DNA of 64,000 nucleotides, from NCBI GenBank assembly GCA_037176725.1, contig JAZBRS010000011.1, forward strand, positions 9,936,001-10,000,000, read 5' to 3'. The notes beneath the pieces were generated by a model that did not search any database, was not told the DNA's origin, and saw nothing but the letters and a program-made list of their open reading frames with translations. Numbering within the stretch: the stretch's first letter is position 1; every line of letters starts with the position of its first letter. The translations under genes and the position numbers were made by a program. Shown piece after piece: positions 9,464-64,000 of this stretch. The stretch is from Posidonia oceanica. Its lineage: Eukaryota; Streptophyta; Magnoliopsida; Alismatales; Posidoniaceae.

Positions 9464-11321
9464 GTGGAGGAGGAAACATTGGCAGCGCAGACAGCAACTG
9501 AGTCAACAGTCCAGGCAGTAACAGAGCTGAAAGCAGCATCAGTAACAGAGTTATCAGCAGCCTCAGTAGTCGGGCCATCAGCAGCATCATTGACAGAGTC
9601 AGCAGAACCATCAGCAGAGTCAGTGGCAGAGCGCTTAGCAGAATCAGCCAGGTCAGAGCAGGTAGAGGAAGTTGCGAGGACGGTGGTCGCGCACCGAGGG
9701 TACAAGAACACTCGAGTAAGCGTGACCATCCTGAAGTGTCACCAGGGCCAAGCAGCGAAACATATACACTCTTTCGATATCACAAACCCCACTTTTGAGA
9801 AAGAGATCCTCTCGGAACTTATTGCATATGGAGAGGAGGATGATACGGGCGAGGATGAGAATGATGAACCATTGCCCGAGTTTCGGCCCTATGACGACGA
9901 TCCAGAAGGCCCCAACCTCCATGTTGAAGAAGAAACAGAGGTTGTTAATATCGGCATAGTTGAAGAAGCTAGAGAGGTCCATATCAGCGCCCAGCTGTCA
10001 TCCTAGGCCAGAGCAGAGTTCATTCCTGAAAGAGTATGCGGATGTCTTCGCCTGGAGCTACGAGGACATGGTCGGCCTCGATGTCAAGATAGTGGTGCAC
10101 AACCTACCCTTGAATCCAGATGCCAAGCCTGTAAAGCAAAAACTGAGAAGATGGTGACCGCAGTGGCTACTCATGATCAAAGAAGAGATCATGAAGCAGC
10201 ATAAAGTCAGTTTCCTGAAGGTCGTCCTTTATCCTGAGTGGCTTGCGAACATTGTGCCTGTGCCCAAGAAAGATGGTCGAGTCCGGATTTGTATCGACAA
10301 TAGGAACCTGAACAAGGCGAGTCCCAAGGACGATTTCCCATTGCCTCACATTGATATCCTAGTCGACAATACCGCGGGCCACAAGATGCTTTCCTTCATG
10401 GACAGCTTCTCCGGTTATAACCAGATCAAAATGGCAGAAGAAGACATGGAAAAGACTTCATTCATCACCCCCTAGGGAGTCTTCTGCTACCAAGTTATGC
10501 CGTTTGGGCTGAAGAATGCCGGCGCAACCTATTAGAAGGCCATGACTGCACTTTTCCACGACCTCATGCACCAAGAAGTGGAGGTCTATGTAGATGATAA
10601 GATTGCCAAAACCAAAGAGCCTGAGGATCACCTTGCCTGTTTGAAGAAGCTCTTTGACCGCTTGAGAAAGTACAAGCTGCACCTTAACCCCAATAAATGT
10701 GTATATGGGGTATCTTCTGGCAAACTTCTAGCCTACATTGTTAGCCAGAGGGGAATTGAAGTGGACCCAATGAAGGCAAAAGCCATCGTGGACATGCCAC
10801 CCCCCAGGACTGAAAAGGAGGTCAGGGGTTCGCTAGGGCGTTTACAATATATCAGTTGCTTCATTGCACAGCTTACGCCCATCTGCGAGCCAATATTCAA
10901 GCTCCTGAAGAAGAATGCATAGATCGATTGGAGCGAGGAGTGCCAGGCTGCATTCGACAAGATCAAGCAGCTGTTGATCAAGCCTCCTGTCTTGGTTCCT
11001 CCCACGCCAGGGAGACCTTTGCTTCTCTACCTTTCTACCATGTAGCATTCCATGGGCGCCGTCTTGGGCCAACATGATGAGTCAGGTAGAAAGGAGTGTG
11101 CCATTTATTACCTGAGCAAGAAGTTAAACGAATGCGAAGCCAGGTACAGCACAATAGAGAAGACCTACCTATCTCTTGTCTGGGCTGCACAGAAACTAAG
11201 GCATTATATGATGGCATACCCAGTTCAGCTCTTGTGCCGGCATGATCCTATCAAGTTCCTCTTCCAGATGCTGGCCATGGTGGGCAGATGTGTTAAGTGG
11301 CAGGTGTTACTATCTCAATAC
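9464..11321 (+). pseudogene. pol: E1 reverse transcriptase and first RNase H, degenerate
   Basis: This is the part of pol that copies RNA into DNA and degrades the RNA strand. A spacer rich in Ser, Ala, Glu and Val (9464-9660) precedes an acidic stretch. RT motifs in order: DVFAWSYEDM (about 10040), PVPKKDGRVRICID (about 10260), FMDSFSGYNQI, VMPFGLKNAGATY (about 10495), the catalytic YVDD (about 10590), and LRKYKLHLNPNKC. RNase H follows (MGAVLGQHDE, YYLSKKLNECEARYSTIEK, about 11050-11170). Stops at 10155-10157 (TGA), 10473-10475, about 10531-10533, 10920-10922 and about 11041 (TAG). The gene breaks at 11321 where E2 has inserted, and continues at 35952 in the same polyprotein. Confidence 0.9.
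11317..11321. other. Left target-site duplication of E2 (AATAC)
   Basis: AATAC at 11317-11321 is repeated at 35952-35956 immediately outside the right end of E2. Across the gap the E1 frame reads on as LSQYDITFV, which confirms the insertion site. Confidence 0.97.
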
Positions 11322-14300
11322 TGTAGCGATCCCGATCGGAATCAGGCTCGCTATTTAGCGGCGATTGGATCCGAGGAAGGGGCTCGACTCAAAAACACTT
11401 GAAATCGAGGAGAAAAGAGAAAGATAAGACAAATCAGAGTCGCCACCATGTCTATTAACGGGAGACAAGGAAAACTGGGGGAAATGCGTGAATTAACACG
11501 CAAAACCAAGCAAGAAATGCAAAGCAAAGCAATGCAAAGGAAACAAATGCAACTACATGCAAATGAGATGACTCTAGCCTAGGATAAGGGCAGTACGGTC
11601 ATTACGGGCCAAAAGACAGGGCAAGGACTCCGGTTACGTGCGGGGAAGGTGTTAGGCACCCCCGACACGCTCGAGAATCGGTCTTTCTAGGCTTACGCTC
11701 GCATACGCAGGAAAATGCAGGATTGAATGCCTATGTGCCTATAAATGCCTAAATGAATGCTCAAGGTGTGCTTTAAGTGAGAAGAGGCAAAGCAAGGAAA
11801 GTAAACGTGCTTTCTAAATGCTCAGCTGCGCTGTCTGTGTTCCGAATCAGGCGAAGCCTAGCTCGTGAGAACTCCAGACAGTAAGCATCACAGCCCTATA
11901 TGCAAATGCAGGCGAAAAAGCAAAACAACGGTAAAACCATGCAATGCGATCGACATGCAAGAGAAAACGGCGTAAAACACGCAAAACGAGGCGAAAAACA
12001 AGAAAGCGCGCAAAACGGTGCAAAAAGACAAGGTCGGTACGCAAAACGGGCGAGAGAGCAAGGCGGCACGCAAAACGAGACAGGGAAGCAAAGAGGCACG
12101 CGAAACGGTGCGGAAACGAGAGCGGGCACGCGAAACGGTGCCAAAACAGCGAAGCAAAAAAAAAACCTCGGAAAAGCCATGCGAATGCAAGAATGCAAGG
12201 AAAAGATCAGAAGAGGTCAAAGGGGAGGCAAAACAACATGTGTGTAAGAACAGACGTCGTTTAGGACCACTCAGAGTAGGTGTAAAGACCTACAGAGGGG
12301 GAGAGTGAGCAAACGGAGGGATTACCGCCTCTTTGCGACTGTTTCCCGCTAAACTGTTCCACGGTGTGTCTCGCACGCTGCCCAAAGCTCGCGATACGAT
12401 CGGATCGTGGAAAAAGGGGGAAGAAAGTCACATTAAGTGATAAATCCAGGGGAAACACAACGCAAAACACTCAGGAATACGCGAAACGGGGATTGGAATT
12501 TACGAGCAGAAAGGGGAGGCCCTATTCTACATGCTCAAAGAAACAGAAAGCGAAAACAAGGAAAACTGTGCAGATGGCATGCAAATGCAATGCAGGGGTT
12601 CAGGAGGACATACCTGGAGATCTGGGAGCCTGATCTGAAATCTATCTAGTCCATGCTGAAGAGCGCTTTGCTGCGGTCGCCTGGGCAGCTTGCTTGAGAA
12701 GATCCAACGGCCGGATCGGAAGATATCGCAGCTTCAAGGTAGGAAGGCCAGAACAGGGGAGAAGAGCAGATCTAGGTGTTCAAGAGGTCCTAGGGGTGTG
12801 CAAAAAGTTCTCCCAAGTGAAGGGGAGCTAAAAGTGCTTAGTGTGTGCAAAGGGATGCTGAAATGCAAAGCTAAATGAATGCAGAATGCATGCACAAGCA
12901 AGAAGAAACAAGGGGAAAAGAACTTGGAAAAAGACAGGAGTTAAAAAGCATTTTGAAAAAGAAATGGGCTAAAGTGCAAATTTTCACAGAAAACAGAGGC
13001 CCACAGGAAAGGATTTTGAAAACAGGGGAGGACAGGGGTCCATTTTGCAAAAAAAACTAGGCTTAGAAAGCTGTTTTGAAAAGAGGGTATGCTCTGAAAG
13101 AGGTTTTGAAAGCAGAAAGGGATCAGAAAGCAATTTTAAGAAAACTGGGGTCTAAGATGCAAATTTTCCAGAAAACAAGGTTCTGGGGAGTCTGGGAATA
13201 CTAGCGGAGGGTCTATATGCAATTTGGTAAGCATAGAAGCTAGGATGCAACCTAGGGGCAAAATGGTCTTTTTACATGATTTTTAAAGATGCAAGGACCT
13301 ATGTGTGATTTTTAAATCATGCGGGGGTCAAATATGCAATTTTATATGGAAAACATGCTCTGAAAACGCAGACTAAGGACTGGTGTGTGATTTTTGGAAA
13401 AAACAGGGTCAGAAATGCAATACAATAAGCCAAAATACATGCATAATAGCCACTGTCCATTTAAAATGGACCTAAGTGCAAATATGAAAAATCAGAGGGA
13501 AGGAAATGCAATGCAGTATGCAAAATAAGAAAATAAAAGCTAAGTTCCTACAGTGCATGGACCTATATGCAAAATCAGAAACATGCATGGACCTAGAATG
13601 CAATGCAGTATGGTAAAATGCAAGCAAATAAATGAACTGATCTACTGCAGGACCTATATGCAATAATCAAAAGCAGAGGGGCTAAACTACAAAATATTAT
13701 AACTGAAACGCACAGTAGAAGGACTGAAAAGCAAATAATGAAAAATGGAAATAAAAACAGCAATTTGGCATAGTATTTAATTTAAAACTAAGCAAACTAA
13801 ATGACAGAAGGACTGGAACGCAATAATTGAAAGACTTAAGCTAAACATGCAATATTTACATCTAAAACTTTATAAACAAGAAAATAAAGGAACAGTGCTA
13901 GTCGGCGGTCGACGAGCACTGTAGCAGAACGCCGGCAGTACTCGTGACCGCCGACAGGGGGGAGCTGGAGAGGCACTGCCTGACGGAGGATGCTGGCGGC
14001 GATCGTCCAGAGCTCCGGAGCGAGTCGGAGCGGCGTTCTGTTGGTCGGAGTGTCCGGAGGAAGAGCAGCCGGCGCCGAAGAAGGAGAACTGACCGGCGAG
14101 TCGGGGACGGAGCGGGAGACCGGGAAAGCTGCTTCTGGGCGGCAGGAAAGCATCAGGGGGAGAAGAGGAAGCTAGGGGAAGAAGGATTTACCTTTCTCCG
14201 CGTCTGAGTCGTTCCCCCGACGCCGGTGGTTCCAGAGGTGGCCGGCGGAGGTCGTTCAGTTGCTGCGGCGGTCGTCAGCTGCTCGCGAGGGCCGGAGCTA

Positions 14301-17037
14301 CTTCAGGGCGTGCTTCCGGTGCTTCCCAGATGATCGGACAGAAGCTCCTGCAGCTCGGACGGAGGGTCGGCTTTTTGGGTTCAGAGGACACTGCCAGAGG
14401 TGGGTGGAGGTTGTTGCTGCTCGTCCGGTGGAGCGAAACCCTCCGGGAGGTTGCTGGAGGCCTGAGGAGTCGTTCTGGATGCTCGGAGAAGGTTTCTGGA
14501 AGATATGGAGGGAGTTAGGAGGCTGGGCTGATTTCTGGTCTGGAGCGAAGCAAGGTGTTTGTTGTGGAGTTCTCTGCCGGTGGTGGGAGAGAGGGCTGAA
14601 GGTCGGGGCTCTGGAAAGGTGGGGGTTCGGTGGGTAGCTGGGTGTAGTTTGGAAGGATTCTGTGGATTGTGGTGAGGGGAATTGTCTGGTGGGTTGTGTT
14701 GGGTTTGAAGGTGGCTTCTGGGGGGGTTAGGAGGTGATTTTGTGGGTGGAAAGGCTGGGAGACGGTGAAGGGAAATGACTGGGTTTCTGGGTGAAATTGG
14801 GGGAGTGATTGGGAGGGAAATTGAGGCCTGAACGGGTGCTGGTTTTCTGGGAGAGGAAGAAGAAGATTTTCTGAATTTGGGAAGGAATGGGAGAGGTTCT
14901 GAGGAGTGGGAAATGGTGTGGGATCTGGGTTTCTCTCCGGGGTGCCAAAGACTTCCTCAAACACTCTCCTCTGGTCTCTCTTCTCTCTGGAATTGGAAGA
15001 TGAAGAGGAGAAGGAAGAGGGTCGCACAAGGGGGGAAGAAGCTTCGGAATTCTGGTCTGATGGCTCTCCACTCTCTGGTTCGCTCTGGATTGCTCTCACT
15101 CCGGCTCTGTCTGACACTCTGGATTGAAGGGAGGACGGGAGGCTTGTGAATGAGGAGGTGCTGCTGCTGGGCACGAGCTGAGAATTCAAACTCGGCCGGC
15201 GGTTACTGCAGCGGAGGGGACGGGGCGACCGGCTCCGGAAAAGCCGCAGAGAGGAAGGAGAGCGGCGGGCTGCTGTAGGCTGAAATGATGGAGGCTTGAA
15301 TTCAAACCGGAGGAGGGAATACTGCAGCTGGCCGTTCGTGGGAGAAAATGGTGAAGAAATCAGCTGAAGGAGGTGGGGAAGAAGAAGGGTGGAGAAGGGC
15401 CGGCCTGTGCTGCGGGCCGAGAAGAAAAAGAAATAAAGAAAAAGAAGAAACGGGCTGACGGGCCCAGTAAGGAAAAGAAAGAAAGAAAGAAGAGAAATAA
15501 GAAAGAAAGAGAGGGTAGGATGGGGAAATAAAATTAGTAAAAAAGGAACTAAAAATAAATAAAAATATTAGAAGGGTTGTGCTATAGATTAGGATTTTAA
15601 TTAGAATTTTTAATGGTCATTTTGAGTTGATTAATGTGTTTTGGGCTTAATTAGGGTTTTAGGGTTTTGGTTTTTCTTTTAGTTAGTTTTTTACTTGATT
15701 AAATGTTTGTTAAACCTTTTTTAAATTGTTTTAAAAATTGTATTTCCCTTGTTGGACACTTAGGATATTAATTAGGATTTTTTTAGGATTTAATTTCGTA
15801 TTAATCAAGGTTGGTTTTAGGTTTTTAAGTTTTAGTCTTCTTAGGGTTTCTTCCTTCTTAAGTCTTTTAAGTTATGTTTTGATTTTTATTTATTGATTTT
15901 TCTTGAAGTTTTTGGTTGGGTTTTTCTGGTTTGATAGGGTGTTTTTTAAGTCTTTCAGATGTGTTTTTCTTTTCTTTTTTAATTAAGTTTTTAACTTGTT
16001 TTTCTTATGTTTATTAGGTTAAGTCTTTTGCCTTCTTTAATTACTTGTTTTAGTGTTTGATTTTTAATTCTCCTTTTTAGGGTTTGTCTTTTAGTTCTTC
16101 TGATGCGGTTTTTATTTTTGGTGGGTTTCAATTTTATTTTAGCTTTTTTCTTGATTTTTCAGTGTTTTCTTTTGATTTGTTTTGCATTTTTTAGCTTACA
16201 TGTTTGGGTTTCCTTTTAGCTTGATTTAGTTAAGTTTAGGTTTTTAATTGCTTCCTTAATGCTTTTTAGTTGTTTTTCTTAGAGTTCTGAATTGTTTCTT
16301 TTATGTTTTGAGGTTTTACAGATTTTTAGGGTTTTTGTGGATTTTTGCAAAAGGGAGAAAAGGAAAAGAGAAGGAGGAAAGAAATGGAGAAAAGAGGGAG
16401 ATAAGAGGAAAAGAGATAGGTTGGAGGAAAACGATTTTTTTTAAAATTCAGAAAAAGTGTTAAAATAAAGTAAAAATAGGGATAAGATAGAGGAAGGATA
16501 GAAGCACAGAGGGGGCCCACAGCCAGACCAGAAAAAGGATAAGAAAGGGATGAAAAGAGAGATGATAATCAGGAGAGAGAGAGAGGAGAGAGAAAATGAT
16601 AATCCCGGAGAGAGAAAAAGATAATTTGGGTGAAAGAGGGTCTTAAAGGTCTCGGAATGGGGTGAGAATTGGTGAGTGGGTAGTCTAGGGTTTGAAGTCT
16701 CGGTTCTGAAGTTTTGGTTTGATTCTAAGGGGGTTTTGGAGGGGTTTCAAGGTGTAGAAAAAGGGTAGTTTCACCTAGGTTTTCTAGGGTTTTTGGGGAT
16801 GGGTTAGGTTTGGAAATTTCTAAGTTCTTGGGTAGGTTTGTTGGGTGGATAGTGGTGGATTTTCCTATGGATTTTGGTTAGGTTTTGAGGTTGGGAAGGG
16901 GGGTAAAGGTTTAGGTCAAAACAGGCTGATTTTGAAGGGTAGAGAGGGGGATTAGGGTTAGGGTTTTGTTGGGGTTTGATCCAGCAATCACCAAGAGGGC
17001 TCCAAGGGTCCGGGCCTGCCAAGATGGGGTGTCAACA
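11322..17037 (-). mobile_element. E2 3' LTR
   Basis: On the plus strand it starts TGTAGCGATCCC and ends GGGGTGTCAACA; in element sense it is TGTTGACACCCC to GATCGCTACA. It matches 30238-35951 along its full length. Differences cluster in the first 1.5 kb on the plus strand; the T-rich part 15500-16300 is almost unchanged. The many open frames here have no recognisable motifs. Confidence 0.97.
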
Positions 17038-17104
17038 GATGCCCCTCCCTGAGCGAGGGCAAGCGGAGCGCGGCCGCTGCTCAGGGTTGACAAGACACCC
17101 CATC
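17023..17104 (-). promoter_or_regulatory. E2 PPT and nested inverted repeat across the 3' LTR boundary
   Basis: The PPT in element sense is AGGGAGGGGCATC (17038-17050), directly before the LTR. Around it lie two nested perfect inverted repeats: GATGGGGTGTC (17023-17033) with GACACCCCATC (17094-17104), and CCCTGAGC (17047-17054) with GCTCAGGG (17079-17086). A short GC-rich stem AGCGG/CCGCT sits at the tip. The outer arm is the start of the LTR itself. E1 has the same two pairs at 42427-42502. Confidence 0.85.
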
Positions 17105-17589: not shown

Positions 17590-18480
17590 GATAAAGTGAC
17601 GGGCTTATCGTCCGGATAGTTTACGGTCCTATCAACCGGGAGTGACAGTTTACGGTCCTGTCAACCGGGGGCAGTTGTGAGTGATAGTTACTGGATATCA
17701 GCCGTATAACATGGTTGTGGGATAGTTTACAGTCCTATCAATTGGCGGATAGTTTACAGACCTATCAACTGGCGGATAGTTTACAGACCTATCAACTGGA
17801 AGCCACAAGCCATGAGGGATAGTTACTGGATATCAGCCGTATAACGCAATGCCGGATAGTTTACAGTCTATCATCTGGAGCGACAGTTTACGGTCCTGTC
17901 AACCGGCGGATAGTTTACAGACCTATCAACTGGCGGATAGTTTACAGTCCTATCAACAGGAAGCGGCATTGCGAGGGACAGTTACTGGATGTCAGCCGTA
18001 TAACATGATTGCGCGTGGTAGTTTACAGTCCTACCAACTGGCGGATAGTTTACAGACCTATCAACTGGAGCGACAGTTTACGGTCCTGTCAACCGGCGGA
18101 TAGTTTACAGACCTATCAACTGGAAACGCTCAATGATGAGGGATAGTTACTGGATATCAGCCGTATAATGCAATTGCTGGTGATAGTTTAGGAGTATCAG
18201 CCTAACGACAGTTTACGGTCCTGTCAACCGGTGGATAGTTTACAGACCTATCAACTGGAGAATAGTTTACAGTCCTATCAACTGGAAACCGCAATTGCAA
18301 GGGACAGTTACTGGATGTCAGCCGTATAACGTAATTGCATGCGATAGTTTACAGACCTATCAACTGGAGAGACAGTTTACGGTCCTGTCAACCGGTGGAT
18401 AGTTTACAGACCTATCAACTGGAGAAGTGCAATTACGAGGGACAGTTACTGGATGTCAGCTGTATAACACAACTGCGGGC
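17590..18480 (-). repeat. E2 covarying hairpin array with nested branch stems
   Basis: About 25 small hairpins in 0.9 kb. Type A is a 5-bp stem around TTTACAGAC or TTTACGGTC: GATAG/CTATC (for example 17615/17629, 17721/17735, 17775/17789), GACAG/CTGTC (17644/17658, 17882/17896, 18072/18086, 18207/18221, 18371/18385) and GGTAG/CTACC (18017/18031). Type B is a 4-bp stem around GTTACTGGA: GATA/TATC (17683, 17818, 18142) or GACA/TGTC (17977, 18303, 18441). Groups of A hairpins are enclosed by longer stems: 17710-17720 with 17803-17814; 17845-17854 with 17964-17973; 18004-18015 with 18127-18138; 18169-18177 with 18291-18299; 18330-18339 with 18428-18437. GCAGTTGTG (17671) and CACAACTGC (18468) bracket the whole. 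No coding potential is apparent. Confidence 0.88.
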
Positions 18481-18498
18481 CGACCATGGATCGACCAG

Positions 18499-18693
18499 AA
18501 GATAGTTTAGGAATATCAGCCTGAGATAGTTTCGGATATCAGCCTAGCACGAGTGATTGATAGATGATAGTTTAGGAATATCAGCCTGAGATAGTTTCGG
18601 ATATCAGCCTAGCACGAGTGATTGATAGATGATAGTTTAGGAATATCAGCCTGAGATAGTTTCGGATATCAGCCTAGCACGAGTGATTGATTG
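18499..18693 (-). repeat. 65-bp tandem repeat, 3 copies, two hairpins per unit
   Basis: Units start at 18501, 18566 and 18631. Each holds GATA-GTTTAGGAA-TATC and GATA-GTTTCGGA-TATC, which are 4-bp stems with loops of the same GTTTnnGGA type as in the neighbouring array. The copies are practically identical, so the amplification is recent. Confidence 0.88.
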
Positions 18694-18725
18694 ATTGATA
18701 AGAGGGGGCAAGATCATGATGAGAA

Positions 18726-19190
18726 TGATAAGATATCGGACTTATCGGCCGGCAAAGAGGGGATGAGATAATGATGAGAAGTTGATCTAAAGAGGGGGAT
18801 GAGATCATGATGAGAAATTAATCTAAAGAGGGGGATGAGATCATGATGAGAAATTAACCTAAAGAGGGGGATGAGATCATGATGAGAAGTTAATCTAAAG
18901 AGGGGGATGAGATCATGATGAGAAGTTAAGCTAAAGAGGGAGATGAGATCATGATGAGAAATTAATCTAAAGAGGGGGATGAGATCATGATGAGAAATTA
19001 AGCTAAAGAGGGGGATGAGATCATGATGAGAAATTAAGCTAAAGAGGGAGATGAGATCATGATGAGAAGTTAAGCTAAAGAGGGAGATGAGATCATGATG
19101 AGAAGTGTTGATTGATAAGATATCGGACTTATCGGCCGGCAAAGAGGGGATGAGGGAATGATGAGAATGATAAGATATCGGACTTATCGG
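18726..19190 (-). repeat. 36-bp tandem repeat (9 copies) flanked by GATAAG hairpins
   Basis: GAGATCATGATGAGAA recurs at 18801, 18837, 18873, 18909, 18945, 18981, 19017, 19053 and 19089, an exact 36-base period. On either side are identical hairpins, GATAAG-ATATCGGA-CTTATC, at 18727, 19114 and 19169. E1 has the same hairpin in a 39-bp repeat at 41019-41155. The 36-base period keeps one frame open for 142 codons with a 12-residue repeat, but I see nothing else to suggest a protein. Confidence 0.88.
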
Positions 19191-19297
19191 CCGGCAAAGA
19201 AGGGATAGGGGAATGATGAGAAGAAATCATCCCATGACGCCAGGAACGTCATAGGGGAAAGAGGGAAAGAATGATACCAAGGGGCGATCAAAAGATG

Positions 19298-19324
19298 CCT
19301 CTGGTGTCGGGATGACACCAGGGG
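19298..19324 (-). promoter_or_regulatory. Long hairpin shared by E1 and E2, with a compensated base pair (E2 copy)
   Basis: CCTCTGGTGTC (19298-19308) pairs with GACACCAGGGG (19314-19324) around a 5-base loop. The E1 copy (40899-40925) has GGTATC/GATACC where E2 has GGTGTC/GACACC. Both arms changed together, so the pairing is kept. Confidence 0.8.
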
Positions 19325-20031: not shown

Positions 20032-21234
20032 CTAGTCAACTCGGGCCTTCTTTGGCCGCCTGGAGTCGGGGAATAGGGGGCCGCCTGGCGGGACTTCAGT
20101 GATTGGCCAGAGCTGTCGAACTTCAGTTTCATACTCAGGGGTGCATTGTATACCTCTCACAGCTGCAATGTCTGTAGATTGGACCCCATGCTGCATCAGA
20201 CTAGCAAGCTTCTTGGTTGGGGCAGTTGTGCTGAGGGGGTACATTTGTAGAAGCTGGGGCGCTGTACTGTCAATGAAGGTGCCCTGCTGGAAGCCGAACT
20301 GGCGCATGACCCTGATTGGATGGTACTCTACGCCTGCTGTGAAACCTGGAAGGATGATCAGCCGCATGTCACGCGCGCTGAAGAAGACAGTGAATGGCTC
20401 TGCTGCAGAGGGGACAATACGCCAGGTTATAGCGTCGTCAGTCAGTGCTGACAGCCTCTCGTATTCTTCTTTGACGCTCTTTTCTGTCTTGGCACGGGAG
20501 CTGCTGCAGTAGGCTTCAAAAGCATGCACTTGAGGGCGCAGAAGGTCCATTTCTAAGTGCGCGGTCAGACAGACTTGTATGAATGCTCCGCAACCGTGGA
20601 AGTGGCGGCAGCGATGAGAGATGCGGTCCAGCCCGCAATAGGTCTCTGCTAGGACAACTGGTGCCAGGTCTATGTGCTGGGTCACCACTGCTAATGCAAT
20701 CTCTGCAACCTCGATGGCCACTGTCAGACGGCCGTGGGTAAAGATCAGCTCGCCCAGGAAGCGGACAACAAATCCTCGGAGCCACAGTTCATCTCCGAGT
20801 TCTGCGCGCTTGTTCAAGATATCATCAAAGTGTGCAAGGCGAAGCATGGGCTCTGGTCCACTGGTGCAGATTAGCTTCTGTTGACAGGTTCGAGTGGGGA
20901 GCCCAGTCAGCTGGCTCAGGACCTGGAGGTACCCGTCGCGCCTCATGAAAATAGGCGGCCCCAGGATCTTTGAAAAGCCGCAGACCCGACGCACCTCTTC
21001 CAGTGTAGGTGTCAGCTCAGTCTTGTTGAAACGGAAGACATGGTGCGCCGGCTTCCAGAATCTCGCGGCGGCACACAGAAGGTGGCGGCTGACCTCCACA
21101 TCAGCAGCCTTCAGCAGCTTAGTTGGCATGCCCCACAGGCGCAGTTGTTCACAGTCTTGTAGAGTGAGCCTGCTGATCCATTCTCGCAGGGCTTCTGAGC
21201 AGTGTGCAGGAGTTAGCAGAGTAGGAAAGCCCAT
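20032..21234 (-). CDS. Extra retrotransposon protein, plant mobile domain / DUF7745-like (E2)
   Basis: An intact 400-residue frame starting MGFPTLLTP and ending KKARVD. The open frame extends upstream to 21372, but similarity to E1 begins exactly at this Met (residue 47 of the longer frame in both copies), so I start here. Visible features: an amphipathic N-terminus with LREWISRLT, the stretch CAAARFWKPAHHVFRFNKTELTPTLEE split here as FWKPAHHVFRF and ELTPTLEEV, then LWLRGFVVRFLGELIFTHG and GVEYHPIRVMRQFG. The W-x-P...F-F...E-TPTLEE pattern resembles the plant mobile domain and DUF7745 proteins found in and around plant transposons; this is recalled, not searched. It is read in the same direction as gag-pol, downstream of integrase. 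How it would be expressed is unknown: its own promoter, splicing or re-initiation are all possible. E2 keeps it intact although pol is broken. No catalytic motif is evident and I cannot assign a function. Confidence 0.8.
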   Translation of the reverse strand: MGFPTLLTPAHCSEALREWISRLTLQDCEQLRLWGMPTKLLKAADVEVSRHLLCAAARFWKPAHHVFRFNKTELTPTLEEVRRVCGFSKILGPPIFMRRDGYLQVLSQLTGLPTRTCQQKLICTSGPEPMLRLAHFDDILNKRAELGDELWLRGFVVRFLGELIFTHGRLTVAIEVAEIALAVVTQHIDLAPVVLAETYCGLDRISHRCRHFHGCGAFIQVCLTAHLEMDLLRPQVHAFEAYCSSSRAKTEKSVKEEYERLSALTDDAITWRIVPSAAEPFTVFFSARDMRLIILPGFTAGVEYHPIRVMRQFGFQQGTFIDSTAPQLLQMYPLSTTAPTKKLASLMQHGVQSTDIAAVRGIQCTPEYETEVRQLWPITEVPPGGPLFPDSRRPKKARVD

Positions 21235-21372
21235 TATGCTGATTACAGAGGGACAGGCAGATAGCTGTAGAAGCTTGAAAGTACCTGCTATCAATAAGCA
21301 GTCAGATCTCGCAGGCGTGTATTCTTTGACAATAAACAGAAACTGAGGCTGATAAAGTAGTTCCATATGCAT

Positions 21373-22791: not shown

Positions 22792-23664
22792 CTACTGATA
22801 GTATTTCTTCAGATAGCAGAGGTTGACGGGCTCAGACTGCTCGACCTGGTCCATATCCTCAAGAGTTACAGCGCCTCCCAAAAAGATCTGCTTGACCACA
22901 AAGGGGCCACGCCAATTGGGTCGGAATTTCCCTCGACCGTCAGGCAAATGAATGGCGCGCAAGACAAGGTCCCCCGGCTGAAAGTTTCTGGGCTGGACCT
23001 TCTTCAAGAATGCTCTGGCCATCCGCTTCTGATAGCAGTGAGCGTTGTGCATAGCTTGCAGTCTGCGCTCATCAATTAAGTTCAGTTGGATGCAGCGGTC
23101 TTCGACCCATTCTGCCTCTTCCAACCCAGCTTCTCGTAGGATCCGCAGAGAGGGGATCTCTACTTCAACAGGTAACACCGCTTCCATTCCGTACACCAGA
23201 GAGTACGGGGTGGCTCCTGTAGAGGTCCGGATTGATGTCCTGTACGCCCAGAGTGCGTACGGGAGCTTGTCGTGCCAATCCTTGTGGGTTTCTGCCATTT
23301 TCTTCAGAATCTTGACAATGTTCTTGTTTGCAGATTCCACTGCTCCGTTCATCTGTGGCCGATAGGGCGAGGATCGATGGTGCTTGATCTTGAGACTTTG
23401 CAGGTATTCTTCGATCCTTTTGGCAATGAAGTTTGAGCCGTTATCAGAGATGACAGAGTGCGGGACCCCATATCGGGCAACAATATTGTTTCTGATAAAT
23501 TTTTCTGTTGCCGCAGCGGTGACTGTCCTGTAAGAGGCTGCTTCCACCCATTTGGTAAAGTAATCGATCGCTACCAGAATGTAACGATGACCATTTGAAG
23601 CAGCAGGGTGGATGGCGCCAATGACATCGATCCCCCAGGTGGAGAAAGGCCATGGTGAGGACAT
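22792..23664 (-). CDS. int: Integrase core and C-terminal region, remnant of E2 pol
   Basis: 290 residues from MSSPWPFSTWGIDVIG. The catalytic triad is complete: Asp13 (WGIDVIG), Asp74 (SDNGSNF) and Glu110 (GAVESANK), with exactly 35 residues between the last two, the DD35E spacing of retroviral-type integrases. Further Tat-type blocks are LPYALWAYRTS, TPYSLVYGMEAVLP and the C-terminal WRGPFVVKQIF and YLKKYYQ. The N-terminal HHCC zinc finger is absent because the upstream deletion removed it. The gag-protease frame enters the junction in a different phase, so this part could not be made as a fusion protein; an internal start at this Met is possible but unproven. Its normal role is joining element DNA to the chromosome. 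Confidence 0.85.
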   Translation of the reverse strand: MSSPWPFSTWGIDVIGAIHPAASNGHRYILVAIDYFTKWVEAASYRTVTAAATEKFIRNNIVARYGVPHSVISDNGSNFIAKRIEEYLQSLKIKHHRSSPYRPQMNGAVESANKNIVKILKKMAETHKDWHDKLPYALWAYRTSIRTSTGATPYSLVYGMEAVLPVEVEIPSLRILREAGLEEAEWVEDRCIQLNLIDERRLQAMHNAHCYQKRMARAFLKKVQPRNFQPGDLVLRAIHLPDGRGKFRPNWRGPFVVKQIFLGGAVTLEDMDQVEQSEPVNLCYLKKYYQ

Positions 23665-23674
23665 GTTGTGCAGC

Positions 23675-23700
23675 CGATGTGGAGGGCCCTTGCTGATTCT
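23675..23700 (-). other. Deletion junction removing RT, RNase H domains and the integrase zinc finger
   Basis: In sense, sequence matching E1 up to about 9655 (GCAGAATCAGC) passes into sequence encoding the PPHRLHNM stretch just before the integrase core, which corresponds to about 36960 in E1. Excluding E2, E1 has about 2.7 kb between these points. The join lies in GGGCCC (about 23685-23690), where a few bases of microhomology are possible. It also changes the reading frame. Confidence 0.85.
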
Positions 23701-23960
23701 GCTGAGTGCTCTACTGATCCTGCTGAGGGCCTTGCTGATTCTGCTGTTGATGCTGCTGACTGTTCTGCTGCTGAGGCTGCTGACAGCTTTACTGCTGAGG
23801 CATTCTGCTCTGCTGCTGCTGCATCTACTACTGATGCTCCTCCCTCTGGGTCTTCTAGTGTGCTCGTGGAGGATATGCCGGACTGGCGGCTGGTCTGGTC
23901 ACTGCCGCTTGATGCATTGCTCAGGTGAGGCATGGGTTGCACAAACCACCTAGACCCGCC

Positions 23961-26900
23961 TTATGGTTGAAGAGTGATGAGCTCATCTGGTCTAGGGGAG
24001 TCCGGCGTTGCTAAGTCTTCTAGGACCATGATAGAAGCATGGTCCTCTTGCAGAGGAGGATCTGTAACTACGGTTTTTCCTTTCCTTTCTGCAGCTTGAT
24101 GGTCTGCCAGGTCTTCTGCTATCGACTTGATCTGTTCTTGATAGAGTAGCTCTAAGTCAGACATCCAAGAATCGACCTGGGCTTCTATCGCCACTCCTTC
24201 TTCCTCGTCTGAGGGGGAGTCGACGTAGTAGGCGTCGGGGGCCTGCGGCACTGGCCTGGCTGCAAGACGGATTGCTGCCTTTGGAATCTGCATGATCTGG
24301 TTTACGGGCGCGTCCGCTGATGGCAGTTCTGATGTAGAAGGCCCAAATAGACAGGTCAGCGGTGCTACTGATGGATAAGCTTTCAGGGTCACTGCTGGAG
24401 AATAAGCAGGGGTGCTCTTTGGAGGGCTCAAGGGCCTGGAGAGTGTAGTGCTCAGTTGGCCTTTTGTATCGGGCCATAACTGAGAGAGCGCAGCCTCTGA
24501 CGCCATAGGGTCTTGCCATGAGAGCTGCTGCAGGTTGTCAGGGGGATGCGAAGCGGACTGCGCCTGCTGCATTCCCGGAGATGTGGATGCTGGGGCGGGC
24601 TGAGCCGCGCTGCTGACTGTATTGCTTGACTGCCCCTCCAGAGATAGGGACAGTGGCACTGATGTTGCTGTGACCGCTGGTAGCATGCTTGATTCTGCCA
24701 GAAGGAGTGTCTCTAACTCCTGCACTGCTGCTGTCTGTACTTGGGAAGCTGATGTGGCTGCAAAAGAGTGGGAACTTGCCTGCTCTGCCACAAGGCTTGC
24801 TGAGCTGCCTGCTGTTTCTGCCAGAGGAAGAGCTGAATAGATTGGCTGTGTGGCCTCTGCTCTGATCACTGTTTCTGCTGTGCTGGTTGGGACTACCTCT
24901 ATTGTACCAGACTGCTCCTCATCCGGGTAGTAGTCCTCAACACACACCCAATCCTCTGTCGGTACTGTGTCTTGATCGTCGGTCGGTCCCAGGGTTCCTG
25001 TACTGGTAAAGTTAGTGAGGTCTCTGGGAATAGCTGATGCATGGTCCTTGAGCTGGAAGCAGTGATCTTCGTTGGTTTTGGGCTCGTAGCCGAGGCCTTC
25101 AGATTTCCTTCGCTCCACTGCTACGATCGGCTCTGCGATCCCCTGGCCGTGACGCCCGAGTGGCGTACCCTTTATGTAACCCCACCTGTGACATACATTC
25201 TCGACCATTCGAAAGGGGTTGCTGTGAACGGTCAAGGAGTTGACACGTTCGAGATCAGGAATGAAGTTAACCGACTCACACCGATTAACGCGATATAGGG
25301 CTTCAGAAGTCTCGGGGTCAAACGGGATAGATTGCGAAGACACGGGAGAGACTGCTTCGATCCGCTCCTTCTCAAAGTTCTCCGCCATGACGACAATGAC
25401 ATCGTCGCCGCGACGGTACTTTATCATTCGATGGAGGGTCGAAGGAAGGACCTGATGCTTGTGGAGCCAAGGGCGCCCAAGCAGAAGATTGAAGTTAGGC
25501 TTCAAGTCGACGACATAGGATTCTACGTCGAAGACAACCGGGCCAATAGCGAGAGGAATAATCAGGACCCCTAGAGCGTCATGGTGAGTGTTGTCAAAGG
25601 CTGTCATTCCCTTCACGGCTGGCGTGATGTCCTCGGCTTTGAATCCGAGCTTGGTTGCTGTACGCAAGGGGCAGACGTTAAGGCCTGACCCATTATCAAC
25701 CAGTGTTAGGGGAATGCGAAAGTTTTTGAACTGCACCGTGACGAACAGGGGCTGGTTGTGATTAATCCCCGCTAGAGGCAGCTCATCACTCGTAAAAGAG
25801 ATGACCTGGGGCTCCGCAATCAACCCAACCATGCTCTCCAAGGCAGAAGGCTCAATGGACTGGGACACACGGGCAGCCTGGAACACACGAAGAAAAGCCT
25901 CGCGGTGTTCGGCAGAGGTGTGGATCAAGTCCCAGATAGAAATGTCGGCTTTGACCTTCTTAAGCTGGGAGGTCAAGTCTGCTTTAGGTTGGCTTCTCCT
26001 AGCAGCTGGAGGGGTGATTCTAGCAGGTTCTAAAGGGGTGGTGACAGGAAGCTGGGTTACTACAGGTTGGCTAGGAATTTGGCTAACTACAGGCTGATCC
26101 AGGGTTGGATCTGCTAAGGGTTGGCTAGAGGGTGGGGGCATAACAGGTCTAGGGTGAGTTGGCCTAGTTGCCGGTGTTGGGGGCCTGTAAACCCTCCCCG
26201 ATCGCGTTACTTCCACGCACATCTCTGTGGCGTAGCTGTAAGGGACGCGATGGGTGTCCAGGGTCAAATCAATGACGACTGGAGCACGTGCTGCGAGCAC
26301 AGGAGGGGTTACAGGGGGACCTACGGGGTACTGCGGTATATCTAATGGGTATGGTTGTTGGGGTGGGAAGGCTGGGGCAGGTTGAGGTCTGCCTAGGAGG
26401 TGTAGTTGAGGTTGCCCTAAGAGGTGGATGGGGAAACTAGGCTGGGCCCTAGCTAGAAGGTGCACAGGGGATTGAGCCTGGGGAAGCACGGTGGGAGGCG
26501 CGAGAGGGCGCTCCGGCCTGGCACGCGGTCGGATCAGGTGAATTCCCGACTCGGAGCCGGCAACTGTCGTGAGATAGAGACTGACTGGGAAAGGCTCAGA
26601 GATGTCAGAGATGAGATCAGAAGGGTCTACTACAGAAGCAGCAGGCCCAGAAGGAAAGACAGAGTGGATGCCTGAGGTTCCCGCCCCTCCCGGATAAGAG
26701 TGCTCCGGTAAAGGTTGGCGGATGATGCCAGGATGCGGGGGAACAGCTGAGTGTGGAGATGCATGAGTGTGTGCTTGAGTGGATGCCTCGTGCGTGTCGA
26801 TCACAATCGTTCCCGATTCGATCAAGTCCTGAATTGCGTTCCGCAGGGAGAAGCAATTGTCCGTCGAATGCCCGACACTTCGATGGAAATTGCAGAAGAG

Positions 26901-28022
26901 GTCCGACCTAAACCAATGCGGCAGAGGACTTGGCGGCGGACGAACCTCCGGGAACTTCAGGAGCGATGCAACCTTCGGCAAGATGACCGTGAGCGGCTCC
27001 ACCAGTGGGGTGAAACTACGCCTCTCAGTAGGTGGTCTTCTTTGCCTTGGGTGTGAGCCTTGCTGAACCGGTGCGGCAGGATAGACCGGTCTAGCGGTGG
27101 TAGTGATGTGTGGTGTGTGTGGACTCCTAGATGCAGGAGCGTACACCATCTGAGCTGGGGCAGGCCGGGATGGCAGGCGAACAGGCACAGCAGGGGAGTC
27201 GACGAACGCAACAGCGGGCTTTGGCGAATCCTTCCTCTTCGGGCGGTTGTTACTGCTGCCGCTGTTGTTGTTGTTGGAGGCGCTGCTGTTGGCACTGTTG
27301 CTGCTTATCACTGGCTGCTTAGCGAACACAGAGAGAGCCGGGAAGTTGCCACTCCGCAAAGAACTCTCCACGCGCGCTCCAGCTCTGATGAGTGCCGCAA
27401 AAGTAGTGACTGGTTGGATGCTAAGCAGAGCTCCGAGAGACGGCTGCGCCCCTTTGATAACGATCTCGATAGACTCCTCGTCAGAGGGTCTATCTCGAAC
27501 CTGAGAGGCAAGGGCGCGCCAGCGGCCGACGTACTCCCCGAACGGCTCGCCAGAATTCTGCTTGATTGCGATCAAGTCCGCTCTCTTTGGGACCAGATCG
27601 AGGTTGAAGGAGTATTGCTCCAAGAACGCTTGACTGAGGTCGTTCCAAGTCTTGATGACTGACATATCAAGTGATGTAAACCACTTGAGTGCCGGCCCGG
27701 TCAAACTCTTCTGGAACAAGCGGATCAGCAACCTCTCGTCGGCCTGAAGCTGAGCGAGATCACCGCAATACGCCTTCAAGTGTGCTACGGGGCAGCCCCT
27801 ACCATTATACTTCTCGAAGTCCGGGATTTTGAACTTCGGAGGGAGTACCGCCTCTGGAAAGCAGCAGAGGTCCCGGAATTGGTAGGTCTGGTGCTCAGTA
27901 CCCTGCACTAGTCGTAGTGCTTTCTCCAAGACGTCCATCCGGTTATTGATGGGGGTCTGGGATTGCTGTTGTAGGAGAGGGATCAGCAGGGGTAGCGAGC
28001 ACATACGCCGAATGGGTCGCAC
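23961..28022 (-). CDS. gag-pro: E2 gag C-terminal two-thirds, protease and G-patch region
   Basis: A long open frame of 1353 codons; similarity to E1 begins at about residue 23. Domains by residue: retrotransposon Gag about 55-215 (PPKFKIPDFEKYNG, WFTSLDM, FLEQYSFN); Asn/Ser-rich linker 240-260; Cys/His knuckle 377-400 (CNFH-RSVGH-STDNC), unlike the usual CCHC spacing; proline-rich linker 500-690; retropepsin-like protease about 765-870 with Asp776 in VDNGSG and the flap-side LLLGRPWLH; G-patch-like 947-978 (GYIKGTPLG, GLGYEP); then a long Ser/Ala/Gln-rich tail. It ends in TAA where E1 has CAA; beyond it the same frame continues Ser/Ala-rich to the deletion junction (23690-23960). Gag would form the particle, the protease would mature it. 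The first third of Gag is in another frame (next entry). Confidence 0.88.
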   Translation of the reverse strand: MRPIRRMCSLPLLIPLLQQQSQTPINNRMDVLEKALRLVQGTEHQTYQFRDLCCFPEAVLPPKFKIPDFEKYNGRGCPVAHLKAYCGDLAQLQADERLLIRLFQKSLTGPALKWFTSLDMSVIKTWNDLSQAFLEQYSFNLDLVPKRADLIAIKQNSGEPFGEYVGRWRALASQVRDRPSDEESIEIVIKGAQPSLGALLSIQPVTTFAALIRAGARVESSLRSGNFPALSVFAKQPVISSNSANSSASNNNNSGSSNNRPKRKDSPKPAVAFVDSPAVPVRLPSRPAPAQMVYAPASRSPHTPHITTTARPVYPAAPVQQGSHPRQRRPPTERRSFTPLVEPLTVILPKVASLLKFPEVRPPPSPLPHWFRSDLFCNFHRSVGHSTDNCFSLRNAIQDLIESGTIVIDTHEASTQAHTHASPHSAVPPHPGIIRQPLPEHSYPGGAGTSGIHSVFPSGPAASVVDPSDLISDISEPFPVSLYLTTVAGSESGIHLIRPRARPERPLAPPTVLPQAQSPVHLLARAQPSFPIHLLGQPQLHLLGRPQPAPAFPPQQPYPLDIPQYPVGPPVTPPVLAARAPVVIDLTLDTHRVPYSYATEMCVEVTRSGRVYRPPTPATRPTHPRPVMPPPSSQPLADPTLDQPVVSQIPSQPVVTQLPVTTPLEPARITPPAARRSQPKADLTSQLKKVKADISIWDLIHTSAEHREAFLRVFQAARVSQSIEPSALESMVGLIAEPQVISFTSDELPLAGINHNQPLFVTVQFKNFRIPLTLVDNGSGLNVCPLRTATKLGFKAEDITPAVKGMTAFDNTHHDALGVLIIPLAIGPVVFDVESYVVDLKPNFNLLLGRPWLHKHQVLPSTLHRMIKYRRGDDVIVVMAENFEKERIEAVSPVSSQSIPFDPETSEALYRVNRCESVNFIPDLERVNSLTVHSNPFRMVENVCHRWGYIKGTPLGRHGQGIAEPIVAVERRKSEGLGYEPKTNEDHCFQLKDHASAIPRDLTNFTSTGTLGPTDDQDTVPTEDWVCVEDYYPDEEQSGTIEVVPTSTAETVIRAEATQPIYSALPLAETAGSSASLVAEQASSHSFAATSASQVQTAAVQELETLLLAESSMLPAVTATSVPLSLSLEGQSSNTVSSAAQPAPASTSPGMQQAQSASHPPDNLQQLSWQDPMASEAALSQLWPDTKGQLSTTLSRPLSPPKSTPAYSPAVTLKAYPSVAPLTCLFGPSTSELPSADAPVNQIMQIPKAAIRLAARPVPQAPDAYYVDSPSDEEEGVAIEAQVDSWMSDLELLYQEQIKSIAEDLADHQAAERKGKTVVTDPPLQEDHASIMVLEDLATPDSPRPDELITLQP

Positions 28023-30218: not shown

Positions 30219-30236
30219 TCCCCAGCGGAGTCGCCA
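30219..30236 (-). promoter_or_regulatory. E2 primer-binding site
   Basis: On the plus strand TCCCCAGCGGAGTCGCCA; in sense identical to the E1 PBS. One base separates it from the LTR that starts at 30238. Confidence 0.93.
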
Positions 30237-30237
30237 C

Positions 30238-40528: not shown

Positions 40529-40898
40529 GGCACATGTGTAGCTGTTTACTTGTTTAGTTTTTATGCTGTACCTTTTGGCCTGCCATAGGCATGTAATCAA
40601 AGCTCTATCAATACAAAGGCGTTCTGTGCCACTTGTTTGTGTTTCAAGTCTGCTCCAATGCATGCATATTCGCGCCAATCATATTGTAGGGTCCCTGGCC
40701 AGACTCGCTGTCAAACGCTGCAGGAAAGTTCTCCTCAATCAATCCAAATGCTGACCCACGCCGTCAAAACAAGCAAGGCCGCCGAGCACCATCACCAGGA
40801 TCTTCTCCCAAGGGCTAGTACCCCAAACTATTCGTTTGACAAACGCATCAGTTTTGTCTTTACCTTTCGTTTTCGATGCCAAGGACGTGCTGGCGATA

Positions 40899-40925
40899 CC
40901 CCTGGTATCATCCTGATACCAGGGG
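40899..40925 (+). promoter_or_regulatory. Long hairpin shared by E1 and E2, with a compensated base pair (E1 copy)
   Basis: CCCCTGGTATC (40899-40909) pairs perfectly over 11 bp with GATACCAGGGG (40915-40925), loop ATCCT. In E2 the A-T pair is replaced by G-C. It lies between the extra ORF and the hairpin array in both elements. Confidence 0.82.
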
Positions 40926-41018
40926 CATCTTTTTTGACCGCCCCTTGGTATCATTCCCCCCATCTATTCCTGGATATCACAGGATGATCTGCTCTCGCAA
41001 AACCTTCATTTGCCGACC

Positions 41019-41976
41019 GATAAGTCCGATATCTTATCACCCATTCATTTGCCAGCCGATAAGTCCGATATCTTATCACCCATTCATTTGTTGGCCGATA
41101 AGTCCGATATCTTATCATCCATTCTTTTGCCGGCCGATAAGTCCGATATCTTATCAATCAATGAATCAAGCACTTCTTCGGCTGATGATTCGAAACTCAT
41201 CATTCTTCGGCTGATGATCTGAAACTCATCACTCTTCGGCTGATGATCCGAAACTCATCACTCTTTCGGCTGATATCCAGTAACTATCACTCACAACTGC
41301 ACCCCTTCTGGTTTGATGAACCGTAAAACATCGCTTTCCGGTTTGATGATCCGTAAAACATCACTCTTCGACTGATGATCCGAAACTCATCACTCTTCGG
41401 CTGATATCCGAAACTGTCACCTGCAGTTGTGTTTTCCAGCTGATATGTAGTAACTATCACTTGCAAACGCCCCTTTCTGGTTTGATGATCCGTAAAACAT
41501 CGCTTTCCGGTTTGATGATCTGTAAAACATCGCCTTCCGGTTTGATGATCCGTAAAACATCGCCTTCCGATTTGATGATCCGTAAAACATCACTTTCCAA
41601 TTTGATGATCCGTAAAACATCACTCTTCGGCTGATGATCCGAAACTCATCACTCTTCGGCTGATATCTGAAACTATCATGGGCATTTGCGTTTTCTGGCT
41701 GATATCTAGTAACTATCACTCACGATTGCGCTTTCTGGTTTGATGATCCGTAAAACATCGCTTTTCGGTTTGATGATCTGTAAAATATCACTCTTCGGCT
41801 GATGATCCAAAACTCATCACTCTTCCGGCTGATATCCGAAACTATCTTGCGCAATTGTGTTTTCCGGCTGATATCCAGTAACTATCACCCTTCCGGTTTG
41901 ATGAACCGTAAAACATCACTTCCTGGCTGATGACCCGAAACTCATCACCTTCGGCCGATAAGTTCGATATCTTATC
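41019..41976 (+). repeat. E1 covarying hairpin array
   Basis: About 28 small hairpins. GATAAG-TCCGATAT-CTTATC occurs at 41019, 41058, 41097 and 41136 (39-bp period) and, with one loop change, at 41957. GATGA-TCCGAAAC-TCATC, GATA-TCCGAAAC-TATC, GATA-TCCAGTAAC-TATC and GATG-ATCCGTAAAA-CATC fill 41180-41950. Longer stems enclose groups of them: CACAACTGC (41292-41300) with GCAGTTGTG (41423-41431), TGCAAACGC (41462-41470) with GCATTTGCG (41682-41690, one mismatch and one wobble), and CACGATTGCGC (about 41722) with GCGCAATTGTG (about 41848, one G-U). Each branch is preceded and followed by a TCCAGTAAC-type hairpin, as in E2. Confidence 0.85.
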
Positions 41977-63793: not shown

Positions 63794-64000
63794 GCATCCA
63801 TACCACCAATTAAAAATTTACATTTTTTCTTTCAGGTTCTAACACCTGTTTTGCCTTGTTTGCAACAGAGACCAGTGAGCGAGTTCCCTAGTCGGAGCTT
63901 GAGTGCTTTTCTTCACTGATGCCTCTATTGTGACACTTGTTTTTGACCCTCCTCTTCTAAGCTACTCGCCTTTGCGACTATAGCTCCCCCTAGGTGTCGT
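63794..64000 (+). other. E3 leader, segment right of SL2
   Basis: Resumes the leader at the position equivalent to about 4110 in E1 (GGTTCTAACACCTGTTTTG, GAGCGAGTTCCCTAG) and ends about 50 bases before the place where gag should start. The pre-gag hairpin is partly preserved (AGCTA...TAGCT, about 63959-63984). Confidence 0.85.

Follow-up and report, generated by a model that had tools for sequence, protein, structure and literature searches.

The 64,000-nucleotide stretch of Posidonia oceanica DNA analysed here (contig JAZBRS010000011.1, positions 9,936,001 to 10,000,000 of the forward strand), termed the window below, contains a 24.6-kb long terminal repeat (LTR) retrotransposon, E_A, which lies on the minus strand and is nested inside an older element, E_B, on the plus strand, as established by self-comparison of the window. 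The 3′ untranslated region (UTR) of E_A is occupied by a tree-like array of inverted repeats and small hairpins. A sequence-only reading had described this array on the forward strand as hairpins grouped by individually different branch stems; the coordinates of all the arms, stems and hairpins that it named check, and the five branches, six separator hairpins and closing pair are present. Strand and context had to be corrected: because the region follows the plant mobile domain gene of E_A and precedes its 3′ LTR, its sense strand is the minus strand, and it is the 3′ UTR of what its sequence features indicate to be a Tat/Ogre-type retrotransposon. In the sense direction the order is GCAGTTGTG, a separator, five times a branch arm, three to four hairpins, a branch arm and a separator, and finally CACAACTGC. 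There are 30 small units in total, 18 within the five branches and 12 outside the closing stem. In sense order, with separators located by motif search, the array consists of the following features.

18497-19194, minus strand: nine extra units upstream of the tree, three of GATAAG type and six of GATA type (three of these six without full second stem)
18468-18476, minus strand: closing stem, 5′ arm, sense GCAGTTGTG (mean pair probability 0.99)
18441-18461, minus strand: separator 1 (GGCTGAYATCCAGTAACTRTC type)
18428-18437 (5′ arm) and 18330-18339 (3′ arm), minus strand: branch 1 stem, perfect (pairing energy, folding)
18340-18427, minus strand: branch 1 interior, three probable pseudoknot units
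18303-18323, minus strand: separator 2
18291-18299 (5′ arm) and 18169-18177 (3′ arm), minus strand: branch 2 stem, perfect, nearly self-complementary
18178-18290, minus strand: branch 2 interior, four probable pseudoknot units
18142-18162, minus strand: separator 3
18127-18138 (5′ arm) and 18004-18015 (3′ arm), minus strand: branch 3 stem, two mismatches, unformed in nested folding
18016-18126, minus strand: branch 3 interior, four probable pseudoknot units
17977-17997, minus strand: separator 4
17964-17973 (5′ arm) and 17845-17854 (3′ arm), minus strand: branch 4 stem, perfect
17855-17963, minus strand: branch 4 interior, four probable pseudoknot units (the unit at 17954 without full second stem)
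17818-17838, minus strand: separator 5
17803-17814 (5′ arm) and 17710-17720 (3′ arm), minus strand: branch 5 stem, one bulged base in the 5′ arm
17721-17802, minus strand: branch 5 interior, three probable pseudoknot units (the unit at 17739 without full second stem)
17683-17703, minus strand: separator 6
17671-17679, minus strand: closing stem, 3′ arm, sense CACAACTGC (mean pair probability 0.99)
17590-17668, minus strand: three extra units downstream of the tree

A second tree is present in E_B, with the following features.

41268-41886, plus strand: second tree, four separators and three branches
41268, 41438, 41697 and 41866, plus strand: starts of the four separators
41292/41422, 41462/41680 and 41721/41849, plus strand: branch stems, enclosing four, seven and four units

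The motif search found one separator before, between and after the branches of E_A, as had been claimed, and the window as a whole gave ten matches at up to three mismatches, six in E_A and four in E_B, against none in 100 shuffles. In assembling the unit set, a long upstream hairpin at 40904 was dropped from E_B and the E_A unit at 18279, with a closing G-U pair, was added by hand. Long hairpins stand upstream of both arrays, at 19298-19324 on the minus strand in E_A and at 40897-40929 on the plus strand in E_B, and show a compensatory pair (GTGTC/GACAC in E_A, GTATC/GATAC in E_B). The upstream units of E_A are interrupted at 18754-19104 by about ten copies of a 36-nucleotide tandem repeat carrying the palindrome ATCATGAT; none of these repeats is listed for the E_B region, and they could serve loop-loop contacts.

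Folding by partition function at 37 °C returned mean pair probabilities of 0.97, 0.99, 0.00, 0.99 and 0.84 for E_A branch stems 1 to 5, 0.99 for the closing stem, and 0.96, 0.82 and 1.0 for the E_B branch stems; with the whole 3′ UTR folded, the values were 0.97, 0.81, 0.00, 0.99, 0.84 and, for the closing stem, 0.99 in E_A, and 0.92, 0.77 and 1.0 in E_B. The sequence-only reading had proposed this kind of folding as its check, and at 37 and 25 °C four of the five E_A branches, the outer stem and all three E_B stems formed as it expected (0.72-1.0), whereas the third E_A branch did not (0.00-0.01). The third stem fails in the window copy because of two mismatches together, C opposite C and A opposite G, the latter found in the window copy only among 17 copies compared; in other copies, such as L017, this branch is fully paired (12 of 12). 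When the arms of the eight branch stems of the window (five from E_A, three from E_B) were matched in all ways, the true pairing was the single best of 40,320, with a total of -119.8 kcal/mol. The mean non-cognate arm pair reached -6.6 kcal/mol, and one such pair, to which E_B branch 3 contributes the 5′ arm and E_A branch 3 the 3′ arm, beats a cognate one. Standard pairs fill 69 of the 72 cells of the eight stems (nine positions, one bulged base removed by hand, outer stem excluded), which none of 10,000 shuffles reached (maximum 67), and each of the nine columns contains at least two Watson-Crick types.

The components of the array are highly repeated in the 2.96-Gb genome, in which the E_A unit has 234,241 matches at up to two mismatches (the reversed control has none), an E_B unit 1,949 at up to one mismatch and the separator at least 109,569 at up to one mismatch; at six separators per array, the last count would correspond to some 18,000 arrays. 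Copies were taken from 76 further stretches. Matches to the E_A unit on contig C1 led to L010-L029, matches to E_B units on C1, C2, C3, C5, C6 and C7 to L030-L049, and exact matches to the separator on C1 to L050-L085. At least one branch is present in 74 of them, L037 and L080 having one separator each and no branch, and together with the window's two the collection amounts to 78 arrays and 315 branches. In the first set, the first of two separator-like matches less than 40 bases apart was dropped by a rule set after the data had been seen, which affected L031, L032, L039, L040 and L047. These five E_B-type arrays carry a separator-like unit 19 bases ahead of the real separator.

In this first set of 152 branches at 41 loci, including the window's two, the cognate median was -16.2 kcal/mol versus -7.1 kcal/mol for 472 non-cognate pairs from the same loci. 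At -14 kcal/mol or better there were 113 of 152 cognate and 2 of 472 non-cognate pairs, and the cognate matching was the unique optimum in 38 of 40 loci (exceptions L019 and L043). The second set, obtained through separator hits only, gave 163 branches at 35 of 36 loci, with medians of -13.4 (cognate) versus -6.2 kcal/mol (622 non-cognate pairs), 57 of 163 versus 8 of 622 at the same threshold, and the cognate matching as unique optimum in 32 of 35 loci (exceptions L055, L061 and L069). Only 10 of the 315 branches are weaker than -8 kcal/mol (e.g., L031 branch 3, L069 branch 1 and L079 branch 2), a value reached by 157 of the 472 and 151 of the 622 non-cognate pairs. All nine positions are standard pairs without a gap in 175 of the 315 branches, which use 27 distinct stems, 11 of them wholly Watson-Crick.

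Individual stems show how these sequences vary. One branch has the 5′ arm CATxATT, and at its fourth position 24 copies have G-C, 10 A-U, 7 C-G, 2 G-U and 6 an unpaired C-C. The window copy is among these six (CATC with CATG), other copies having CATC with GATG or CATG with CATG, so that the C-C mismatch of the third branch stands midway in a compensatory change. For branch 4 two versions are found, CGCAATGCC/GGCATTGCG and CGCAAATGCC/GGCATTTGCG, which differ by a pair inserted on both sides. The claim that pairing and not sequence is conserved is thus supported in related copies, both by the cognate optimum and by compensatory changes.

The plan of the array recurs as well. Six separators are found in 42 of the 78 arrays, four in 17, five in 8, three in 7 and other numbers in 4; successive separators stand 61-351 bases apart, with the branch arms just inside them. 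The closing stem reaches a pairing energy of -12 kcal/mol or lower in 41 of the 42 six-separator arrays (exception L070), and in 40 of the 42 it beats all control pairings; it yields little covariation, since its sequence hardly varies. In the E_B-type arrays, with three branches, this stem serves as one of the inner branches, and the array as a whole lacks a similar closing pair. The caution of the earlier reading, that the outermost pair might be two half-stems of neighbouring branches, is settled by these copies, the pair being a closing stem in 41 of 42 six-separator arrays and an ordinary branch stem in the three-branch family.

Eight loci were extended to 9.9 kb. Seven of them have integrase and plant mobile domain ahead of the array, and in four of these seven an LTR-start motif follows it. 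The eighth, L089 (G000:C1:7225600-7235500), has six separators and neither domain within about 8 kb upstream; it could be a nested insertion or else an element that is short and non-autonomous. Over aligned stretches, the plant mobile domain proteins of the extended loci share 60-87% identity with that of E_A, and L093 (60-69% identity) retains six separators. An array of this kind might also arise with no function at all, if tandem duplication during reverse transcription built it and the arms, as imperfect palindromes, stayed complementary through template switching from one to the other. This we consider improbable as well as hard to fit to the copies, since successive separators stand 61-351 bases apart with the arms just inside them, the six-separator plan recurs in spite of varying branch lengths, one-sided intermediates (the six C-C cases) exist as separate copies, and the pairing of separators, branches and pseudoknots is retained all together.

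The small units had been called hairpins; hairpins are indeed present, but the units are better described, on the sense strand, as what are probably H-type pseudoknots. A typical sense unit, CGGT-T-GACAG-G-ACCG-TAAA-CTGTC, can fold into two helices that cross, the loops being 1, 1 and 4 long. The three-pair core of the second helix occurs in 25 of the 30 non-separator units of E_A, whereas 2000 shuffles gave 14.4 on average and 22 at most. In an alignment of 18 E_A units (7 distinct), 95.2% of cells pair and three pairs change on both sides, and none of 500 shuffles reached the covariation score. Over all loci a good second helix (score 8) is found in 53.5% of 795 distinct units, while 500 shuffles gave a mean of 34.8% and a maximum of 38.7%, and its types include CGG/CCG, CAG/CTG, AGG/CCT, TGG/CCA and TTCGG/CCGAA. 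The genome-wide unit finder accepted hairpins anywhere in the loci with a neighbour within 150 bases, so some units may lie outside arrays. When own and neighbouring strands were held to the same register limits, the 5′ strand of the unit itself was the better partner of the loop in 586 of 1120 cases and the 5′ strand of the following unit in 312; when the following unit could pair in any register, the two were nearly level, with means of 7.94 (own) and 7.57 (own better in 693, worse in 640, of 1833). The commonest geometry is L1 1-3, L2 0-2 and L3 4, in a search itself limited to L1 1-3, L2 0-3 and L3 of at least 2. Two crossing helices with covariation support, which define the H type, are seen over all loci and in the aligned E_A units; in the E_B units of the window, taken by themselves, the second helix does not exceed shuffled levels.

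Separators behave differently, and their description as ordinary pseudoknots was not supported, the second helix being mostly missing. The 393 copies fall into 73 forms with 18 of the 21 positions more than 90% constant, in a motif search that allowed four mismatches and so favours conserved positions. The variable pair of their 4-bp stem is T-A in 302, C-G in 88 and broken in 3 of the 393. From this we infer that the separator may be a sequence-specific site held in a hairpin.

The remaining features of E_A are the following.

30238-35951, minus strand: 5′ LTR (BLAST 30236-35951, trimmed to TG..CA by eye)
23961-28022, minus strand: gag-protease frame (Retrotrans_gag, G-patch; Pfam)
22792-23898, minus strand: integrase frame (Pfam rve and open reading frame list)
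20032-21372, minus strand: plant mobile domain protein, the last recognised gene before the array (Pfam PF10536)
about 17038-17056: polypurine stretch beside the 3′ LTR
11322-17037, minus strand: 3′ LTR (BLAST 11320-17037, trimmed by eye)

The gene order is gag-protease, integrase, plant mobile domain protein, then the array and the 3′ LTR. The two LTRs are 99.0% identical across 5719 bases (BLAST) and are flanked on both outer sides by AATAC, a 5-bp target duplication. Since the gag-protease and integrase frames of E_A adjoin, there is no room for reverse transcriptase (RT) and RNase H in between, the other E_A frames having been scanned only in part. E_A thus has no space for RT/RNase H at 22792-28022, although its array type is hugely amplified, and it may depend on other copies. 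The E_B pieces, split by the E_A insertion, stand in the order RVT_1, RT_RNaseH, RVT_3 (a second RNase H) and integrase (Pfam), and it is through them that the Tat/Ogre order of gag, protease, RT, RNase H, second RNase H and integrase is found. In both elements a plant mobile domain gene follows pol (Pfam). Traits of the Tat/Ogre lineage are seen in the dual RNase H, the great length of the LTRs, the tandem repeats at the 3′ end and the plant mobile domain gene, and on these sequence features E_A and E_B are classed as Tat/Ogre-type; according to PMC6317226 the plant mobile domain is present in 57% of Ogre elements, and the LTRs measure up to about 5 kb. At 57873-63794 lies one more LTR-like copy, which shares about 78-81% identity with the E_A LTR, and an internal fragment in the opposite orientation adjoins it at 57096-57855.

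ARAGORN, a program not made for tRNA-like viral ends, found no tRNA genes in the window, and no Rfam family matched at gathering score. A prokaryotic or viral origin of the region was ruled out, since the long frames encode plant retrotransposon domains and neither tRNA nor Rfam match was present. The separator motif was not found in scans of viral contigs and prokaryote genomes. A protein search gave eight relatives, all on contigs of about 1-2 kb without context. Protein-based scans yielded no plant element for comparison: a relative of the plant mobile domain protein is encoded in one stretch, none of 12 pattern matches was a relative, and L001, a contig from a bacterial bin with a remote match at 31% identity, was set aside.

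Whether the structure works as RNA or as DNA can be approached through the strand on which it folds. Plain nested folding, for which three arrays with fewer than three separators were omitted (leaving 75 of the 78), gave at least six expected pairs on the sense strand in 253 of 314 branches: 87 formed the stem on sense only, 18 on antisense only, 166 on both and 43 on neither, and by locus sense was preferred to antisense in 62 loci to 13. Two other strand tests were rejected. Pseudoknot counting failed, as antisense is nearly as rich in hits (19 antisense versus 26 sense in E_A, 26 versus 24 in E_B; shuffled means 8.3 and 6.4), and wobble asymmetry showed no strand bias: among 82 of the 96 distinct arm pairs, G-U and A-C cells numbered 35 and 36, and because these counts are equal, wobbles do not mark the RNA strand. 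The same equality, together with hairpins being possible on either strand and with an antisense strand that also folds well (184 of 314 branches), speaks for a structure acting as DNA, either as hairpins of single-stranded cDNA or as paired protein-binding sites in double-stranded DNA, that would be used in reverse transcription, integration or chromatin. That the DNA is the working form is nevertheless rather improbable, as the branch stems form more often on sense and their sequences differ, which would not be expected of a binding site. In the antisense reading, moreover, a loop of 1-3 would have to span a stem of 4-6 bp on the shallow-groove side, whereas the sense loops are 1, 1 and 4. 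Sense-strand folding of the branches, position and unit geometry lean towards RNA as the probable working form.

Comparison of the copies shows that the arms pair and covary, that the plan recurs and that the array follows integrase and plant mobile domain. A conserved, covarying tree before the 3′ end of a very abundant retrotransposon points to a hitherto undescribed working part of the element's RNA. Its presence in the transcripts, the RNA as working form, protein binding and a purpose in export or packaging are what we infer, the first from position. We give roughly even chances to the proposal that the array is a cis-acting RNA scaffold for export or packaging of unspliced genomic RNA. 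The closing stem would open into a junction in which six near-invariant separator hairpins alternate with five branch stems, each enclosing a run of short H-type pseudoknots; separators would be recognised through their sequence, pseudoknots and stems through their shape. A single protein, of the host or of the element, would then gather in many copies on the unspliced genomic RNA, and the loaded RNA would be carried out of the nucleus or into particles, as with the transport elements of some animal retroelements. The position of the array, from the last gene to the 3′ LTR, is that of the transport elements of some animal retroviruses, such as Mason-Pfizer monkey virus (M-PMV). Where motifs are repeated, weak one by one and set in a fixed frame, a scaffold offering one protein many sites is the simplest purpose they could serve. 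Functional introns are described in Medicago Ogre elements (PMC12786077), so the unspliced RNA of such elements must leave the nucleus. IAP and musD have transport elements, that of musD with a pseudoknot (PMC12786077), and in Cer1 the export factor is encoded by the element itself (PMC10309623). A more specific version is unlikely, namely that the tree, a hierarchical structure and a new class of RNA architecture, is the loading platform of the element-encoded plant mobile domain protein, whose gene stands beside it in both elements of the window and in seven of the eight copies checked, and so a plant counterpart of Rev and its response element; if true, it would by copy number be among the commonest conserved RNA structures of the host genome.

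Several results weigh against a structured, working RNA. All copies come from one host genome and were picked by similarity to its units or separators, not at random. The third E_A branch does not fold in the window copy. Nested minimum energies are unexceptional on the sense strand (z of -1.93 in E_A and -0.65 in E_B, 40 shuffles each) and on the antisense (-1.3 and -2.18, 40 shuffles each), so folding energy was rejected as proof of structure, and it does not favour sense in both elements; base composition may account for part of the sense-antisense folding difference, and the wobble cells show no asymmetry. The second-helix core is present in 19 of 25 E_B units, no better than in shuffled ones (all 2000 reach it), because most E_B units share similar strands. 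Further pair types are not raised in the E_A alignment (4 versus 4.5 shuffled), 46.5% of the 795 distinct units fall below the second-helix threshold, and a second helix accompanies 6.0% of 348 separators. Rough energy estimates, covering part of the units, range between -4.8 and +3.7 kcal/mol and mostly lie below +1; such weak single units count against the structure, though they also fit protein-assisted or cooperative folding.

With such an ordered design, the purpose of the repeats and the nuclear exit of plant retrotransposon RNA become directly testable; a review finds no direct plant studies on the latter (PMC12786077). The more than 100,000 separator copies in one genome make an unusually rich natural mutagenesis set.

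Comparison with known systems begins with the tandem repeats in the 3′ UTR of Tat/Ogre elements (PMC7004042, PMC6317226), which the present array resembles in lineage features, place after the genes and tandem repetition. Those repeats are characterised in PMC7004042 as hypervariable and a source of satellites, whereas here they are ordered, nested and base-paired, a covarying design kept while the neighbouring protein differs by about 13-40% over aligned stretches. In PMC7004042 and PMC11963269 3′ repeats are described without structure: the term "secondary structure" does not occur in the main text of the former, and neither it nor "hairpin" in the latter, a Retand survey. Among the top entries of literature searches on repeats, pseudoknots or secondary structure in Tat/Ogre, other LTR elements and comparable RNAs, titles and the opening lines of abstracts report no such structure, which is weak evidence of absence.

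A structure that is real but serves translation or stability, with a run of pseudoknots near the 3′ end recruiting translation factors or blocking decay, is not very likely. The upstream pseudoknot domain of tobacco mosaic virus (TMV) likewise consists of consecutive small pseudoknots in the 3′ UTR of a plant-expressed RNA, and its three pseudoknots act in translation and replication and bind eEF1A (PMC4683447). In Copia93/Evade, a plant LTR retrotransposon, the expression and nuclear retention element (ENE) is also an RNA structure of the 3′ UTR, and promotes mobility by protecting the poly(A) tail (PMC12501189). The TMV domain is described there as three pseudoknots and a tRNA-like end, with no branch stems, separators or closing stem (PMC4683447), and a branched layout of thirty units and six separators is a long way from three successive pseudoknots; the window contains no tRNA-like gene by ARAGORN, with the program's limit given above, and no Rfam match. 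The ENE is a motif that forms a triple helix with the poly(A) tail, with no array (PMC12501189). The array of E_A precedes a 5.7-kb LTR, so that a place close to the transcript end would be an assumption of this reading.

For a scaffold in export or packaging, the nearest relatives by function would be the musD transport element (MTE) and the IAP RNA transport element (RTE; both PMC12786077), the constitutive transport element (CTE) of M-PMV and the Rev response element (RRE) of HIV-1, which are likewise structured cis-acting RNAs of retroelements; the MTE includes a pseudoknot. According to PMC12786077, the TAP/NXF1 receptor is not used by plants. Transport elements are one compact fold, whereas the array comprises 30 probable pseudoknot units and six separators. 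The HIV-1 RRE is a branched structure on which several Rev molecules are loaded. We place the array, whose structure is conserved and whose export role would follow by analogy, as possibly working like a CTE, RTE or MTE export element and not as a member of any of them.
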